A stretch of 64,000 bases of DNA from the NCBI GenBank assembly GCA_963971405.1, contig OZ020485.1, positions 1,984,001-2,048,000 of the forward strand. Direction: 5' to 3'. This document shows, piece by piece, positions 6,265 to 35,924 of this stretch. Both the position numbers and the translations under genes were made by a program. This stretch comes from Psococerastis gibbosa. Its lineage: Eukaryota; Arthropoda; Insecta; Psocodea; Psocidae. Within the stretch, counting starts at the first letter, position 1, and each line of letters begins with the position of its first letter. The notes beneath the pieces are model-generated. The model made no database searches. It worked only from the letters and a program-made list of their open reading frames with translations, and was not told the origin of the DNA.

Positions 6265-6690
6265 AGCTATCTGCCACTGAGAGAAATAATGGGATGTTTT
6301 CAAGTATCGGACACCCATTTTTCGGTCCGATAACGAAATTTCGAAAACTTATCGTAGATTACTACACATAAGATATCGGACCACTTCTCCGATAACACAA
6401 AATCTCCGTTGCGTTTTCGTTGAGCTGTTACTCCGATAAAAATTACACGATAAGTTATCGGAATGCAAATTCTTCCCCCATAAGTTAACGGAGTGACCTC
6501 CGATGTCTTATCGAACTTGTAATGCCTCTATAAGATATCGTTGCTTGGTCGACGATACTTTAAAGGAGCTCTGGCACATCGATAATTAAACGTCTAAAAA
6601 ATGTACGATAAGATATATGATGACCTAGCTGAGACGAAAACTTATCGGATTCACTGGATATGGTCCGAAAAGTTATACGTAGCGCGTGTT
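6265..6690. repeat. Cluster of TTATCGGA/TCCGATAA octamers
   Basis: In about 420 bp there are a dozen or so copies or near-copies of TTATCGGA in both orientations, for example GTCCGATAAC near 6325, CTCCGATAAC near 6385, AAGTTATCGG near 6455, CTTATCGGA near 6640. It looks like the subterminal repeat region of a DNA transposon or a block of protein-binding sites. There is no gene here. I could not identify terminal inverted repeats. Confidence 0.45.
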
Positions 6691-6923
6691 TTTCGCGCTA
6701 AAATTTAAAATCATATTGCTTTAATACGACATCTATATTCGTAAATATGGAACGAAAGTAAAAAATTATATATTACATAAAAAACTACTTTGCTTTACTA
6801 TTGTAACGAAAAATTAACCAATTCCCCTGGGGAGGGGGGGGGGGGGTTATAATGATATTACGACTTTGGAAAATAAAATGCAAATACATATTTGTATATG
6901 TGCGGTATAGACGGATGCATCTG
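6691..6923. other. No gene seen; poly-G run
   Basis: AT-rich sequence with a GGGGAGG(G)n tract at about 6829-6846. The copia protease frame breaks off immediately to the right, so the copia element's internal deletion or truncation point lies near 6930. Confidence 0.4.
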
Positions 6924-7772
6924 TTAGCGCCCCGAAAAGTGAGAGCTTGCTCCGGAATCAAAAGACCACGAAGCACGACGGCCTGTGTCAGTATTGAAAG
7001 CCACAAGAAAATCCGTGCCATCCTTTCTTCCACAATTTTGACGGATATGGCCGTAAGACTTGCAGCCATGGCATTGAGGACCTTTTCCTACCGATTTCGA
7101 AGCAGAATTTTTCTTGTCGACATTGAAATTTGGCTTTGGCTTCTTCTTGACTTCGTCCCACATCCTACCATGCGTGGCCAACGCAGAAGCAGCAGGATCC
7201 GTCATTTCAGAGCGACGAACTGATTCCGACAGCAGTTTAGACTTAATAACATTCATCTGAAGTTTTTGCGTAGAGGAATTCTCCAAAGCAATGACAAGCG
7301 GGTCAAAGGACTCAGGTAAACCACTGAGAAGTAACACACACAGCAATTCCTCATCAATGGGATTGCCAACATCATTAAGTTCTTGTGAGATAGCAGTGAA
7401 TCTAGTTACATAATCATCCATACTTGCTGAAACCTGTAAATTAACAGATAACAACTTGCGGAGCAACATAATCCGACGCTGTAGTGAGGATCCTGCGTAA
7501 GTGGATTTTAGGACATCCCATGCTTCTTTAGCTGTACCGCAATTCCTAATTAGAGGATATATACACGTATTGCATGTAAGTGCAATCTTTGCTAAAGCCT
7601 TTTGATCTTTAATTGTATCCTTGGCACTATATGCATTGGTTGTGGAATCCATCGCATAGCTAGTTACCGCCTCAAATAGATCTTCATGGATGAGAAGCAT
7701 TTTCATCCCAAATGCCCAAACGCCATAATTTTCACCCAGTAACTTCTCCACCTGAAAAACCTGCGTTGCCAT
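6924..7772 (-). pseudogene. Ty1/copia retrotransposon Gag with truncated protease
   Basis: The minus-strand frame from the ATG at 7772 (MATQVFQVEKL) encodes a copia-type Gag. An N-terminal UBN2-type capsid-like region spans about residues 10-150, and a basic linker leads to a CCHC zinc knuckle, CHGCKSYGHIRQNC, near residues 234-247. The frame then enters the aspartic protease with FDSGASSHF, where D-S-G is the active site. Homology ends a few residues later at about 6935, so the rest of protease, integrase, RT and RNase H are absent. A start nine codons upstream (7799) is open but lacks conservation. The Gag frame has no stops, so the truncation is fairly recent or was present when the copy inserted. 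Confidence 0.88.
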
Positions 7773-9309: not shown

Positions 9310-9349
9310 ACGCAGCCTATTTATACTCTCGTATAGGCTAATGAAAGCT
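9310..9349 (+). repeat. Repeat family R, left part, split by the LTR element
   Basis: TATACTCTCGTATAGGCTAATGAAAGCT resembles the hairpin proximal end of family R, which normally continues AGCTTTGTGATGGTCG. That continuation is found at 17506, directly after the LTR element, so the element inserted into this copy and duplicated AGCT. Confidence 0.5.
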
Positions 9350-12300
9350 TGTAATGTGAATTCCGGAAAACGTAACTTTTAATATTACACAAAACCGAAC
9401 CAAAAAAAAGAAGAAAATTATTTACCATTTATTCTTATTTTCAGAAATCCACAAAACAATAATCACCGCGACCTAGCTCGAGTCAAGAAGAGATGTTGGG
9501 CGTAGATCCTTTTTAAACTGTTTTAATTCTATTAGACTGCTAGCTTTTTGAATAGATCTCCGAATAAAAATCTCAACCAAAACCTTCCAAGACATTCAGG
9601 GAACGTGCCAAGCCAAGAACAACAGAAAATCTAATTTAACCCAATATAATAACCTTATGGTCAATAAGAAATAAGCAATACATGATATCACAATACTGTA
9701 AGGAAAATTACAATTAGTTGGTTAGTACATTTCACTAGAATTAAGTATTATCAGAGGAAAATACATGACTTATAATAATTTGTTCATCTCAAAATTAATA
9801 GAATGCTGGAAAGAAGAACAATTACCCGAACAGGGAGAATTTCTCTATCCCTGGCTGAACTTAAGCAGCTATGCTCAAAATAATAATTAACTTAAAAAGG
9901 AGGACTCACTCAACTCTTAGGTTTCGAAGAAAAGAAAGTAAAAAAAAGGAAGCAATAGGTAAGCTGATATCAAAAATATAAATGTACTAATTCAGACTAT
10001 TTAATTAAAAGTAATATAGTATTCAAAATTAAATTTCAAGTTTAGAGTCCGAATTTCAAAAAAAAAAATACTCCTATAAGGGCAACATTTCACTCACGCA
10101 TTCATACTGGGGTACCTTAACAATAAACACCCAATGGTAGAAGAGTTGCAGAAAGGAATGAGTAGACTAGTATCTTCCATCATCAGCATCTAAGATCCCT
10201 GCATCCTTGCCACCAGCGTTTTAGGCCCGCACGGCCGTGAGAGGTTAAACCGGCATCATAGCATCAATGGTTTCAAACCGCAGGAGAAAAACCAGCATCC
10301 GAGATAGAGAAGCAAACACTTGAAGCATCACCTTTGAAGTTAGGCATAATTTACTTGGAGAGATCCGAGGTGATGAAGGAGGAAAAAAAATGAAAGATGA
10401 GAGAAAATCAAAAGAAGGAGAACGAAGAACTTGGAGAACGAAGAAGTCGGAGAACGAAGAAGTCGGAGAACGAAGAAGTCGGAGAACGAAGAAGTCGGAG
10501 AACGAAGAAGTCGGAGAACGAAGAACTTGGACCTGGAAACAAAATTTTAGTTCACAGAATTTTCGAACACTAATCTTAGCAGCATAGCAGCTTCCACATA
10601 CGAGCGACTGGAGACGAATTGGAAACGTGATTGAAGAATGCAGATACTTTCCATTAAATTTACTAAGCAACTGCTTCTAACTAGTAGCCAGAATAAAATT
10701 TAGAAACCTAGTTCGATTGGTTGACTCCAAAAAGGTAGACTAAGTTGGCTAATCTGCTATTAAGATCCATTGAGCTATCTTAATTCGCTGGTCAAGTAGT
10801 GACGTACAAATGGTAACATCTCTCTCTAGTTAAAAATGATAAATAGTAGACCTATAGCATTAACTTGTATGCATTAGACTTGAATAAAACACTTTCCGGC
10901 CAAAACCTCAAAATAGTTTGAACTAACTTGTAAGTTCAGAAACTTGCTTAAAGTTGAATAAAAAGGGAATCGAATCTTAAACGGAGCACACTAAATGTTT
11001 AAAAGTAGTCTCATGTGGTTGAGAAAAATATCGAGAAAAGAGCTCAACGTAAATTGAGAAAGGGGGGGGAAGGCATTTGACTGCCTACGCCTCTGACGAT
11101 TGCTCCATGAGGGCAAATCGTGCGACCCCAGTTAGCTTATCAACTTTTTATTCCGAAAACGAAAATATATTTCACAAGGTTAGATAAAGTACTGGCTGAA
11201 TTTACTAAGAGCTTTCAAAATTAATTCAATATTGTCTATTCAAACATCTAAGCCTGTCGCATACAGTTAATACTAGTATAGCAAAGTAAGCTTACCAGAC
11301 AGAACTCCTAGTTGTTTTTTTATTGCTGGTTAGAACTAGTCCACGTTCAAAAAATTAAGTTTTTCCGTAGGAACCAGGTCAAGGCATCTCAACCTACGTT
11401 TTCGCAGACCCGAAATCCATTAGAACTCCACAATTTCTGGGCCCTTGCTAGAATAAACCAGAGTTAGCTATAACACACTGTCTGAGCCATTCTATATTTT
11501 AATTAAAGATTGTTGGGAGAATTAATGTATTTTATTTAATTTACGTTGTGTAGTTAAATAATTAATTTAGTCAGGTTTTAAATCTCTTTAATTTCGTAAC
11601 CCACTACTAAGGTTAACCCATAACGCATAGCGACCATGTGAGCGGTTTGCAACAAAATTGGGTTTTAGTGAAGAATTAATTAAACGAAATCTGCCAAATT
11701 TCAGGAATCAACTGAACACAGTTGGAAAAAACATTTATCAGTAAAAATTCCACTAAAAGTTCAACGTTGAAAGTAATTAAATTTATTTCAATTGGGCCAC
11801 ATGGCATCGCACTTAGAGCAAGGCATGGTCCCAGAAATTCACTAATTTCTCAGAGAAAAAGTAGGTTAAAACAATGGATTTAATGCTTACCCTGTATCAG
11901 ATGAAAATAAAAGTAATTAATAAATTAACATTGTAGAATTAGGTTGGTTTTCTTTATTACCAAGAATAAAAATCAAAAATTATACGGGCCCAATTTCAGG
12001 AATCGCCACCATATTTCCCTCTTCCGGAAATCAGTGTTTTCCTTTTTCTAAGGCACCGCTTGGCATACCCGTTGCCGCGAAATTGCTGGGATTTAAAATC
12101 TAATCACTTTGAATGCAAAAATTACTTTATTTGGTGCCATTTTATAAGAATTAGATTTATAAATTAGTTATTAAACTTACGTTGAAAAAAAAAGAAGAGT
12201 TATTTCAATAAAATCAGTTTAAATATTTATTTGTTATTTTTGTATTAATGGCATAGACAAACAGTGCGCAGCCTTCTAGTTCATACCGACAAAGGAACTT

Positions 12301-12616
12301 ATTGTAAACAAAAACATCGAATTCAAACATGGACATCTCCCTAGAGATTTTATCAATATTTCGACGCAAAAATAGAGAATACCTTCACGATAAGTAGGCC
12401 TAGACTAACCAGACTTAAGGAAGTGAAGTAAGACCATGTTCTTCATTGAGTTGCGAAGTCTTCAGGTACCCAGATGCTACGCTGGACGAGAAATAAATTC
12501 GATACCAGTGACAGGTAGGCTCTAAGAGTTGATAGATTGTGAATAAATTATGAGATTAACCGATTTTATCCAAAACGCTAGCGGATAAAATTCAATGGAG
12601 CAAAATTCTTGCTACA
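9350..12616 (+). mobile_element. Left long terminal repeat (3,267 bp) of a long-LTR element
   Basis: This segment is repeated directly at 14241-17505. It starts TGTAATGTGAATTCC and ends TTCTTGCTACA, so it has TG...CA ends with TGTA/TACA inverted termini. The two copies keep an exact offset (4,891) until a G tract near 11062-11069, which has 8 Gs here and 6 in the right copy; I noticed no other indel and no substitution in the lines compared. The element is flanked by AGCT on both sides (9346-9349 and 17506-17509). No reliable gene is present; frames at 10245-10670 arise from a 16-bp minisatellite. A 3.27-kb LTR is unusually long. Confidence 0.8.
10421..10530. repeat. 16-bp minisatellite in the left LTR
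   Basis: There are seven tandem units of AACGAAGAAGTCGGAG; the first and last read AACGAAGAACTTGGAG/C. Because 16 is not a multiple of 3, every frame cycles through the same peptide over 48 bases, which produces spurious open frames on both strands. Confidence 0.9.
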
Positions 12617-13191
12617 AAATATTGACCATAAAGTAAACTCGCATTTCCAGACCTACACGGTCGAAAGGCGAACTCGTAGAATTAATTGGGAAGAGAACAA
12701 GATGAACGACCTATTCCAATCGGACACCCAAAAAAAACAACTTGAATTATAAGAGGAACAACTTCGATCCATCCTACTCAACCATAGACGATGGTTGAAG
12801 AACTCAACCACAGAAACAACTTATCATCTGTGGGAGTAACGAAAGGCCAAGATGAACAGGCAACGCAGACATTTCGAAAAACTTCGCGGAAAGTAAAAGC
12901 ATTGGAAACATAGTATAGACAGCAAGCAGCTGTCTGACCAACCAACCCTTTACAAGGAGGGAAAATATCCGGGGGATATTGACCAATAAAAAAAAAAAAA
13001 AAAAAAAAAAATTGAATTTTTTTTTTTGTTTTTTCTTTATTTAAAATAATAGAAAATATAAGAAATAATTTTTCCTACTTGAAACTTAGTAATAAAATTA
13101 GCCGGAAACTATCCGGGCTCGGATGTCAAGAACATCGGGGGTATATTGACCATAATCAAGAAGGATTCTACTATCGAGAACTAGGAACGCT

Positions 13192-13294
13192 CTTTTTTTT
13201 TTTTTAAAGTGATATCTTGCTTAGCTGGAAGAGTAGCTCTTCGGGGCTAAAGCTCGCCTGAAAATAAAGACGATATTTCATTTCATTTCATTTC
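13192..13294 (+). mobile_element. 3' tail of a non-LTR retrotransposon or SINE inserted in the interior
   Basis: A T-rich start is followed by GCTTAGCTGGAAGAGTAGCT, a short TCTTCGGGGCTAAAGC segment, and a GAAAATAAAGACGATATTTC end that runs into TTTCA repeats (ATTTCATTTCATTTC). This is the form of the last hundred bases of many arthropod non-LTR elements. It carries no coding sequence. Confidence 0.45.
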
Positions 13295-13329
13295 TTGCAT
13301 CTGTATAGAAATATTTTTATACGAATGGG

Positions 13330-13520
13330 CGTAAGAACGAAACATGCCATCTTCCAGCTTCGTCACCGTCCATCGTTTCTAAGATATAGGAAGAATTTCC
13401 AGCTCTCGCACGGATTGTGAAGGGACCTATATATCTCGCCATTAAACTTTTCGTAACCCCGGCTTGCGCTTAATTCAGCAAACCGCAAAACGGACAAATC
13501 ATACCGAATGCAATTGCAAG
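13330..13520 (+). pseudogene. Possible Ty3/gypsy integrase C-terminal (GPY/F-type) remnant
   Basis: Across at least two frames of the plus strand I can read ARIVKGPIYLAIKL, then NRKTDKSYRMQLQD. This order resembles the GPY/F module at the end of Ty3/gypsy integrases, in which a K/R-G-P-Y segment precedes a K-S-Y-(K/R)-V-x-x-x-D segment. It is broken by frameshifts and short. If correct, the parent of the long-LTR element was a Ty3/gypsy element in plus orientation. The assignment is weak. Confidence 0.3.
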
Positions 13521-14240
13521 ACCCGAGTGGCCATTGATTAGTTAAAAATTAAATTTATCCAAAAAGAGCAGTTAACAGGAACCAAACATCCAACAAAAGA
13601 GGCGATGGGAAGAGTACCACTACTAACGACAACTAAAGACAACACGGAGAATCTGCAACAATTCACCAAAAAGATTAAGCACGGGTTGGACGCCATTCGA
13701 AGAGATAGCTTCGAAACTAATAAATAGAGAAACGATTCATGGAAGAATACTGAACCACTAAGGTCAAATGGCATAGGACAAATCTACCTAAAAACCACAG
13801 TACGTACCAATGAATAAAAATAGGAACGGAAGAAAGTCAAGGCAAAAGCACTTACAGACTGAGAGAAAACTTCGTCACCAAAGGCAAAAGCACTTACAAG
13901 GCAAATCGAAGACAGAGAAATAATAAGTTTATCAATATTATACCACAATAACACAAGATGAGGCACAAAGCCTAAGAGAAAAAAATTGCATTCTACCCAA
14001 TGGGTAGGAGTACTCTATGAAAAAGAGGGTTTTCCCCAAGATTAACTAATGTTCACAGCGCATCAAAGCTCCCAACTTGCAAGGCAAGACGGACATAATT
14101 ACTCGGTGATCCATCAACCAACTAACAGTCTTTAAGAATTAAAACAAAATGCTGTTGTGCAGCACTACGCCATGGCATTTGAAAAATAAATTGCAATTTT
14201 GCAGTTTCGCAGCCCCACGCCCTGGGCTCCATTTTTTTCT

Positions 14241-17200
14241 TGTAATGTGAATTCCGGAAAACGTAACTTTTAATATTACACAAAACCGAACCAAAAAAAA
14301 GAAGAAAATTATTTACCATTTATTCTTATTTTCAGAAATCCACAAAACAATAATCACCGCGACCTAGCTCGAGTCAAGAAGAGATGTTGGGCGTAGATCC
14401 TTTTTAAACTGTTTTAATTCTATTAGACTGCTAGCTTTTTGAATAGATCTCCGAATAAAAATCTCAACCAAAACCTTCCAAGACATTCAGGGAACGTGCC
14501 AAGCCAAGAACAACAGAAAATCTAATTTAACCCAATATAATAACCTTATGGTCAATAAGAAATAAGCAATACATGATATCACAATACTGTAAGGAAAATT
14601 ACAATTAGTTGGTTAGTACATTTCACTAGAATTAAGTATTATCAGAGGAAAATACATGACTTATAATAATTTGTTCATCTCAAAATTAATAGAATGCTGG
14701 AAAGAAGAACAATTACCCGAACAGGGAGAATTTCTCTATCCCTGGCTGAACTTAAGCAGCTATGCTCAAAATAATAATTAACTTAAAAAGGAGGACTCAC
14801 TCAACTCTTAGGTTTCGAAGAAAAGAAAGTAAAAAAAAGGAAGCAATAGGTAAGCTGATATCAAAAATATAAATGTACTAATTCAGACTATTTAATTAAA
14901 AGTAATATAGTATTCAAAATTAAATTTCAAGTTTAGAGTCCGAATTTCAAAAAAAAAAATACTCCTATAAGGGCAACATTTCACTCACGCATTCATACTG
15001 GGGTACCTTAACAATAAACACCCAATGGTAGAAGAGTTGCAGAAAGGAATGAGTAGACTAGTATCTTCCATCATCAGCATCTAAGATCCCTGCATCCTTG
15101 CCACCAGCGTTTTAGGCCCGCACGGCCGTGAGAGGTTAAACCGGCATCATAGCATCAATGGTTTCAAACCGCAGGAGAAAAACCAGCATCCGAGATAGAG
15201 AAGCAAACACTTGAAGCATCACCTTTGAAGTTAGGCATAATTTACTTGGAGAGATCCGAGGTGATGAAGGAGGAAAAAAAATGAAAGATGAGAGAAAATC
15301 AAAAGAAGGAGAACGAAGAACTTGGAGAACGAAGAAGTCGGAGAACGAAGAAGTCGGAGAACGAAGAAGTCGGAGAACGAAGAAGTCGGAGAACGAAGAA
15401 GTCGGAGAACGAAGAACTTGGACCTGGAAACAAAATTTTAGTTCACAGAATTTTCGAACACTAATCTTAGCAGCATAGCAGCTTCCACATACGAGCGACT
15501 GGAGACGAATTGGAAACGTGATTGAAGAATGCAGATACTTTCCATTAAATTTACTAAGCAACTGCTTCTAACTAGTAGCCAGAATAAAATTTAGAAACCT
15601 AGTTCGATTGGTTGACTCCAAAAAGGTAGACTAAGTTGGCTAATCTGCTATTAAGATCCATTGAGCTATCTTAATTCGCTGGTCAAGTAGTGACGTACAA
15701 ATGGTAACATCTCTCTCTAGTTAAAAATGATAAATAGTAGACCTATAGCATTAACTTGTATGCATTAGACTTGAATAAAACACTTTCCGGCCAAAACCTC
15801 AAAATAGTTTGAACTAACTTGTAAGTTCAGAAACTTGCTTAAAGTTGAATAAAAAGGGAATCGAATCTTAAACGGAGCACACTAAATGTTTAAAAGTAGT
15901 CTCATGTGGTTGAGAAAAATATCGAGAAAAGAGCTCAACGTAAATTGAGAAAGGGGGGAAGGCATTTGACTGCCTACGCCTCTGACGATTGCTCCATGAG
16001 GGCAAATCGTGCGACCCCAGTTAGCTTATCAACTTTTTATTCCGAAAACGAAAATATATTTCACAAGGTTAGATAAAGTACTGGCTGAATTTACTAAGAG
16101 CTTTCAAAATTAATTCAATATTGTCTATTCAAACATCTAAGCCTGTCGCATACAGTTAATACTAGTATAGCAAAGTAAGCTTACCAGACAGAACTCCTAG
16201 TTGTTTTTTTATTGCTGGTTAGAACTAGTCCACGTTCAAAAAATTAAGTTTTTCCGTAGGAACCAGGTCAAGGCATCTCAACCTACGTTTTCGCAGACCC
16301 GAAATCCATTAGAACTCCACAATTTCTGGGCCCTTGCTAGAATAAACCAGAGTTAGCTATAACACACTGTCTGAGCCATTCTATATTTTAATTAAAGATT
16401 GTTGGGAGAATTAATGTATTTTATTTAATTTACGTTGTGTAGTTAAATAATTAATTTAGTCAGGTTTTAAATCTCTTTAATTTCGTAACCCACTACTAAG
16501 GTTAACCCATAACGCATAGCGACCATGTGAGCGGTTTGCAACAAAATTGGGTTTTAGTGAAGAATTAATTAAACGAAATCTGCCAAATTTCAGGAATCAA
16601 CTGAACACAGTTGGAAAAAACATTTATCAGTAAAAATTCCACTAAAAGTTCAACGTTGAAAGTAATTAAATTTATTTCAATTGGGCCACATGGCATCGCA
16701 CTTAGAGCAAGGCATGGTCCCAGAAATTCACTAATTTCTCAGAGAAAAAGTAGGTTAAAACAATGGATTTAATGCTTACCCTGTATCAGATGAAAATAAA
16801 AGTAATTAATAAATTAACATTGTAGAATTAGGTTGGTTTTCTTTATTACCAAGAATAAAAATCAAAAATTATACGGGCCCAATTTCAGGAATCGCCACCA
16901 TATTTCCCTCTTCCGGAAATCAGTGTTTTCCTTTTTCTAAGGCACCGCTTGGCATACCCGTTGCCGCGAAATTGCTGGGATTTAAAATCTAATCACTTTG
17001 AATGCAAAAATTACTTTATTTGGTGCCATTTTATAAGAATTAGATTTATAAATTAGTTATTAAACTTACGTTGAAAAAAAAAGAAGAGTTATTTCAATAA
17101 AATCAGTTTAAATATTTATTTGTTATTTTTGTATTAATGGCATAGACAAACAGTGCGCAGCCTTCTAGTTCATACCGACAAAGGAACTTATTGTAAACAA

Positions 17201-17505
17201 AAACATCGAATTCAAACATGGACATCTCCCTAGAGATTTTATCAATATTTCGACGCAAAAATAGAGAATACCTTCACGATAAGTAGGCCTAGACTAACCA
17301 GACTTAAGGAAGTGAAGTAAGACCATGTTCTTCATTGAGTTGCGAAGTCTTCAGGTACCCAGATGCTACGCTGGACGAGAAATAAATTCGATACCAGTGA
17401 CAGGTAGGCTCTAAGAGTTGATAGATTGTGAATAAATTATGAGATTAACCGATTTTATCCAAAACGCTAGCGGATAAAATTCAATGGAGCAAAATTCTTG
17501 CTACA
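14241..17505 (+). mobile_element. Right long terminal repeat (3,265 bp) of the long-LTR element
   Basis: Direct repeat of 9350-12616 with the same TGTAATG start and GCTACA end. It is two bases shorter, in the G tract near 15954. The very high identity means the insertion is young. The right target copy AGCT follows at 17506-17509. Confidence 0.8.
15312..15421. repeat. 16-bp minisatellite in the right LTR
   Basis: Same seven-unit array as in the left LTR, with the same unit number and order, which confirms that the two LTRs have hardly diverged. Confidence 0.9.
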
Positions 17506-17708
17506 AGCTTTGTGATGGTCGAAATTTTCCATTCCGAGGTTACTACGGAATTACAGGTTTTGAGGTCCCAGGGGCCCCAAAAAGTGATTTTGTAAGAAAT
17601 GTCTGTCTGTTAAACTGCCTGTATTTGAATGGGGTTCTTAGCTGGTTTGAATGGTGGCACTACTGCTGGCTATCACAAAAAACATGGCGGATAGCCTTTT
17701 TGTATTGA
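17506..17708 (+). repeat. Repeat family R, right part after the LTR element
   Basis: It begins AGCTTTGTGATGGTCGAAAT and continues with a GAGGTCCCAGG block and GAAATGTCTGTCTGT, the diagnostic order of family R. It is the continuation of the copy interrupted at 9349. Confidence 0.65.
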
Positions 17709-35404: not shown

Positions 35405-35754
35405 CGGGAGTGGCAGCTCAGGTAGCTCCAACATCAAAAACAGTAACACCAGTTTTACAGTGCAATATGTTGATTGTTGCAGGACATGCGGGGCACAGAC
35501 ACGGAGAGTGGCAGCTCTGGTACTCCAACTTCGAGGAGTTCCAGGGGCTGAGTTAGCTCAGCTCCAACATCAAAAACAGTAACACCAGTTCTACAGTGCA
35601 ATATGTTGATTGTTGCAGGACATGCGGGGCACAGACACGGAGAGTGGCAGCTCTGGTACTCCAACTTCGAGGAGTTCCAGGGGCTGAGTTAGCTCAGCTC
35701 CAACATCAAAAACAGTAACACCAGTTCTACAGTGCAATATGTTGATTGTTGCAG
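35405..35754 (+). repeat. Tandem 136-bp repeats containing the Dpr exon's acceptor and 5' part
   Basis: Two full units, 35481-35616 and 35617-35752, precede the real exon, and a degraded partial unit lies at about 35405-35480. Each unit holds a 3' splice acceptor (GATTGTTGCAG), the first 67 bases of the exon (from GACATGCGGGGCACAGACAC to GGGGCTGAG) and then intronic CAACATCAAAAACAGTAACA. In the Dpr frame each decoy reads to AGT-TAG, a stop just after the exon-like part, so a transcript using a decoy acceptor would be truncated. The period of 136 also shifts the frame. Confidence 0.85.
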
Positions 35755-35924
35755 GACATGCGGGGCACAGACACGGAGAGTGGCAGCTCTGGTACTCCAA
35801 CTTCGAGGAGTTCCAGCGGCTGAGCGAGCCCAGCTTCGACAACAACACCATCACCAACGTGACAGTCCAGTTGGGGGGCACGGCCTTCCTCCACTGCAGA
35901 GTGCGCAATCTGGGAGAGCGCACG
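35755..35924 (+). CDS. Dpr-family immunoglobulin protein, exon encoding the N-terminal half of Ig domain 1
   Basis: The exon follows the acceptor GATTGTTGCAG and ends at CACG/GTGAGT. It begins with the last two bases of a codon and then has 56 codons: HAGHRHGEWQLWY, a linker, then NVTVQLGGTAFLHCRVRNLG and ERT. The cysteine of FLHC is the B-strand cysteine of the first Ig domain, and the RVRNLGERT...SWVR junction is a hallmark of Dpr proteins. Dpr proteins are two-Ig, membrane-anchored neuronal surface proteins that bind DIP proteins in synaptic partner choice in Drosophila. Signal-peptide exons must lie upstream, outside or unrecognised. Which dpr paralogue this is cannot be told from one domain. 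Confidence 0.88.

Follow-up and report, generated by a model that had tools for sequence, protein, structure and literature searches.

The window, a 64,000-nucleotide stretch of the Psococerastis gibbosa genome (C2:1984001-2048000), carries a recent LTR-retrotransposon insertion on the minus strand that lacks gag-pol. The element is delimited by two direct repeats identified with blastn: a 3' LTR of 3,267 bp (9350..12616) and a 5' LTR of 3,265 bp (14241..17505), both in minus-strand sense. The orientation was assigned from the gag-pol of full-length relatives; in three of these (L010, L011 and L015) gag-pol is on the minus strand, which rules out a plus-strand reading of the element. Both LTRs start with TGTAATG and end with GCTACA, and comparison of the LTR repeats revealed an AGCT target-site duplication to the left (9346..9349) and right (17506..17509). 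The near-perfect 3.27-kb repeat has a blastn E of 0, far beyond chance.

Aligned base by base, the two LTRs show zero substitutions and differ only at LTR offset 1718, where a G tract is two G longer in the left LTR. A 16-bp tandem repeat array (unit GGAGAACGAAGAAGTC) lies within the 3' LTR at 10417..10525, with its counterpart in the other LTR at 15308-15416; its length differs among relatives. The initial annotation had described a young LTR element with direct repeats of these lengths, TG...CA ends, an AGCT duplication and a two-base indel as the sole LTR difference, and the near-identical, substitution-free LTRs and the 4-bp duplication bear this out. Zero substitutions in 2 x 3,265 sites place an upper bound of ~164,000 generations on the age of the insertion, if the Drosophila rate of 2.8e-9 mutations per base and generation is assumed for the present host.

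In the 1,624-bp interior no stop-free stretch exceeds 98 codons, which is within the range of shuffled sequences (mean 91, max 195, n = 200), in keeping with the earlier remark that no gag-pol frame is present. Read on the minus strand, the interior starts beside the 5' LTR with a 5' leader (13470..14240) that is 99.0-100% identical in L009, L010, L011 and L015 and includes a candidate primer-binding site (14211..14231). The sole gene remnant is the final pol codons and stop (13317..13469), recognised by comparison with L010 as the integrase tail with its GPF motif. This remnant is joined to the leader at a deletion junction with TTGCGC microhomology (13464..13469). The 3' untranslated end of the parent interior follows (12617..13316), and its main block, outside an insertion described below, is 97.8-99.9% identical in 13 relatives. 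A GGTCAATAT-like word occurs three times in this 3' untranslated end on the sense strand, at window positions of about 12620, 12975 and 13145. Elsewhere in the window, direct repeats with a period of ~136 bp, 95-97% alike, are present at 35424-35845. Outside the window, contig C68 (17,084 bp) carries a COX1 gene according to Pfam, surrounded by frames read by eye as nad2 (partial), cox2, atp6 and cox3 in the arthropod order; the host is accordingly an arthropod, and probably an insect.

Coding relatives and the missing interior

A query with the LTR's first 600 bp against the 409-Mb genome gave at least 40 scored places among 67 candidates. Of these, 24 fall into 11 loci in which LTRs on the same strand are spaced by 9.27-10.58 kb, including a row of four LTRs; the remaining 16 comprise the two in the window and 14 others without a partner among the matches listed. 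The genome therefore holds full-length relatives in which pol lies between LTRs of this family, as read at L010; the initial annotation had proposed looking for such copies. The L010 interior has two stop-free frames on the minus strand between the LTRs, one gag-like (531 codons) and the other pol (1,273 codons), and the gag and pol pieces of L011 and L015 are likewise stop-free across the extent of those loci.

Pfam identified RVT_1, RNase H, Integrase_H2C2 and rve in L010 pol, while the first 400 codons (the first third) had no Pfam match. The order reverse transcriptase-RNase H-integrase is thus present in L010, and is deleted from the window copy. Against solved structures, the L010 reverse transcriptase was best matched by 4ol8 (3.8e-63), which we take to be Ty3 reverse transcriptase, then by 7q5b, labelled Ty3-G (5.2e-62), and the integrase by 7q5b (6.6e-26) with foamy virus integrase behind. 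L010 gag matched Pfam only below curated cut-offs (Retrotrans_gag at E 0.036, a weak SAP-like match and a weak zinc knuckle). Judged by its predicted proteins, the family is a Ty3/gypsy-type LTR retrotransposon. It appears to have been recently active, given that gag and pol are open in those relatives that were read and that the window copy has no LTR substitution.

The window interior corresponds to L010 positions 68-837 and 6537-7312, overlapping by the 6-bp TTGCGC, plus a 72-bp insertion. What is missing relative to L010 is one 5,705-bp block that holds all of gag and all of pol except the last ~50 codons. The window copy is accordingly predicted to make neither Gag nor Pol, and it retains both LTRs, the leader and the candidate primer site. 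A 130-bp query across the junction gave 32 matches in the genome: one spans it (the window copy), 18 cover the right side only and 13 the left side only. All 13 left-side matches are paired with a right side at a distance of 5.76-5.77 kb. Among the 18 right-side matches, five lack a listed left side: three are units of the rearranged row on C13, and the others lie at C2:52.50 Mb and C12:11.90 Mb. The deletion is the derived state.

The 72-bp insertion (13221..13292, plus strand) lies 24 bp past the pol stop, has an (ATTTC)n end and is flanked by a 6-bp TCTTGC duplication read by eye (13215-13220 and 13293-13298); it is perhaps a short SINE or LINE fragment. We compared the 13 relatives given by the left-side junction matches, two of which sit in one row on C19, and found the insertion in three (L089, L096 and L098) and absent from ten. 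Since these three share the insertion yet have full-length spacing, the deletion postdates the insertion and, among the copies found, is confined to the window copy.

Long LTRs are a trait of the coding family itself. Measured between the end words, six of nine left-hand LTRs span 3,194-3,258 bp and three span 2,025-2,076 bp; two further LTRs of the short form, in L012 and L016, are without LTR positions 1182-1944 and about 2095-2541, with the gaps seen directly. The 2.0-2.1-kb form also occurs at C12:40.75 Mb, C12:46.99 Mb and C14:95 kb, as judged by length only. Ten other LTR pairs were tried for target-site duplications, and all six with both outer ends located have 4-bp duplications; in the other four no right end was found within the sequence examined. 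Exact boundaries were read by eye, as the fuzzy match began two bases early.

Rearranged rows of the same family were also observed. At C13:30110504-30145000, four LTRs stand in a row with a 10.39-kb spacing and a single CTAA duplication flanking the whole row. In the one interior read from this row (L009), a portion of gag together with the beginning of pol is inverted with respect to the LTRs. A 1,692-bp segment in the row was found only in its three units (100%) and at C12:44.81 Mb (71%, partial), and a 393-codon frame running into this segment in L009 had no Pfam match. Another row probably lies at C19:18092412-18112626, where the family shows, in tandem, two LTR places and two junction spacings of full length, which imply a third LTR.

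Primer site, polypurine tract and lineage

The absence of an obvious primer site, noted in the initial annotation, holds for the plus strand but not for the minus strand, the sense of the element. Read in this sense, AGAAAAAAA and TGGAGCCCAGGGCGTGGGGCT come after the 5' LTR, and a candidate primer-binding site begins 9 nt from the LTR. Alignments with tRNA-Lys(CTT) and with a second site, L099, suggest that it resembles a diverged tRNA-Lys site. The 3' end plus CCA of a host tRNA-Lys(CTT) gene (L100) aligns with it through a 2-nt gap, a 1-nt gap and mismatches. The alignment scores 12.5 against 12.0 for the best shuffle, with none of 5000 mononucleotide shuffles as good, for a tRNA picked after the idea was formed. 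On visual inspection L100 has unpaired stem positions, and the principal tRNA-Lys gene may therefore be another one. Among the 30 of 50 RF00005 matches examined, the best tRNA was tRNA-Thr with a score of 9.0, and tRNA-Lys(TTT) scored 7.0, under a slightly harsher gap cost than that used for tRNA-Lys(CTT).

No exact 13-nt match between the site and the 3' end of a tRNA was found, with pattern CACGCCCTGGGCTD giving no places in the genome. Pattern TTCRANNCNNNNCCTGGGCT gave two places, neither with a tRNA according to ARAGORN, and both were rejected. Neither the window nor L030 yielded a tRNA with ARAGORN in bacterial mode. Pattern TTCRAGCCCCACGNNGGGC, aimed at tRNA-Lys(CTT), was rejected as a route to the tRNA; its one place has no tRNA but a primer-site-like stretch, L099 (C12:236.7 kb). 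There, a nearly exact tRNA-Lys site (two mismatches in 23 against L100) lies 3 nt past a TACA end, and L099 looks like the border between LTR and leader in a different element. The window leader resembles L099 past the site: no shuffle among 3000 was as good for the whole, and two among 3000 were for the downstream stretch taken by itself. With BLAST, this match of 44 bp reaches only E = 0.031. Window-family gag had no meaningful match within 1.5 kb on each side of the L099 site, and the link to L099 thus consists of about 45 bp. Self-priming through leader-LTR complementarity was ruled out, as only 8-9-nt matches were found.

No purine run of at least 10 was found within 400 nt of the 3' LTR in the window copy, where a less regular polypurine tract is possible, and the relatives are nearly identical to it in the sequence beside this LTR. 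Because the pol of the coding relatives is Ty3-like, we keep the Ty3/gypsy assignment despite the lack of a recognisable polypurine tract.

Within this class, the lineage is most likely Osvaldo/Isis of insects, which fits the long LTRs, 4-bp duplications and tRNA-Lys-like site by published descriptions rather than by a tree. LTRs above about 1 kb and a 4-bp duplication, both Osvaldo/Isis traits, are present (compare PMC3286476). In Culex quinquefasciatus, Osvaldo-lineage Ty3/gypsy elements have LTRs of ~1-2.1 kb (nearly all of those listed), total lengths of ~7-12.5 kb, mostly 4-bp duplications and a tRNA-Lys primer site (PMC3286476). Compared with these, the window LTRs are longer (3.27 kb), and the candidate primer site, which is diverged, lies at a distance of 9 nt from its LTR. 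Some Culex copies labelled 'frag', such as cqgypsy_2.2 (5,491 bp, with LTRs of 2,054 and 2,057 bp), have by description the same anatomy as the window copy (PMC3286476).

An Isis-like element of Calliphora vicina, of the Osvaldo lineage, has LTRs of 2,577 and 2,574 bp, a 4-bp duplication, a gag of 531 aa, a pol of 1,137 aa and, as described, no env (PMC3630058). By description it shares with the window family the long LTRs, the 4-bp duplication and a gag length of 531. Unlike the window copy, it has no internal deletion as described, and its gag has a RING finger, whereas Pfam finds only the weak SAP-like and weak zinc-knuckle matches in the window family (PMC3630058). A literature search of titles and abstract beginnings, made without species terms, met no description of the present element.

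The woot element of Tribolium castaneum has LTRs above 3 kb. It is named with the Osvaldo lineage in PMC3286476 and as a gypsy-class element in PMC2397513; by description, this beetle element is like the window family in class. An Osvaldo/Ulysses group is also named in PMC5408442.

Origin of the deleted copy

We consider the window copy to be, very probably, a recent Ty3/gypsy-type insertion on the minus strand, most likely of the Osvaldo/Isis lineage, that was gutted by one 5.7-kb deletion between two TTGCGC words. Full-length parents would have produced Gag and Pol from genomic RNA, and a tRNA (here probably tRNA-Lys, if the candidate site is used) would have primed minus-strand synthesis immediately internal to the 5' LTR. 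During the cycle that gave rise to the window copy, reverse transcriptase would then have jumped template between the two TTGCGC words, which we hold to be the somewhat likelier timing of the loss, and integrase would have inserted the product, giving the 4-bp duplication. It is possible, though we think it doubtful, that the insertion was full length and lost its middle later through microhomology-mediated chromosomal repair or end joining; the 6-bp microhomology is equally compatible with such repair, which is expected to leave the same scar. Zero LTR substitutions leave little time since insertion for a later loss, and a template jump requires no extra step, but neither point is decisive. 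That the deletion occurred earlier, in an already deleted RNA mobilised in trans, is improbable.

The initial annotation had likened the element to the large retrotransposon derivatives (LARDs) of plants, which form multi-copy families and have a non-coding interior that is their own. In LARDs such as Dasheng of rice, the LTRs are shared with an autonomous partner (PMC1940013). The window copy has in common with them LTRs shared with an autonomous partner and a non-coding interior, but it is one private deletion copy (one of 32 junction matches) with an interior not distinct from that of its coding partner. A true non-coding, long-LTR family replicated in trans by the coding family would account for the lack of coding capacity, for the intact LTRs, leader and candidate primer site, and for coding relatives in the genome. 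We nevertheless regard it as very unlikely, as the junction was found once in the genome, the LTR length equals that of the coding family, and the interior is the parent's two ends plus a 72-bp insertion common to three full-length-spaced relatives, with nothing of its own. The likeness to plant derivatives is, on the same grounds, not upheld. Nor does mobilisation in trans follow, as the annotation had held, since the deletion may date from the reverse transcription that made the copy or from after insertion; a single private deletion copy gives no evidence of a trans-mobilised family. The nearly identical repeats, judged on the assembly rather than on reads, could also arise from segmental duplication or an assembly artefact rather than transposition, but the TG...CA ends and 4-bp duplication of the window copy, at least 38 other scored LTR places and the other pairs' own 4-bp duplications (six of six with both outer ends located) make this scarcely credible.

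There is a small chance, which we rate as quite improbable, that the window copy is the founder, or first seen copy, of a non-autonomous lineage, its gag-pol-less RNA having been packaged, copied and inserted in trans. If so, it would be a LARD-like derivative caught at birth in an arthropod. On the preferred reading of a recent insertion gutted by one deletion, a supposed animal LARD is struck off the list, and long LTRs with little between them may reflect a single private deletion within a Ty3/gypsy family that has long LTRs.
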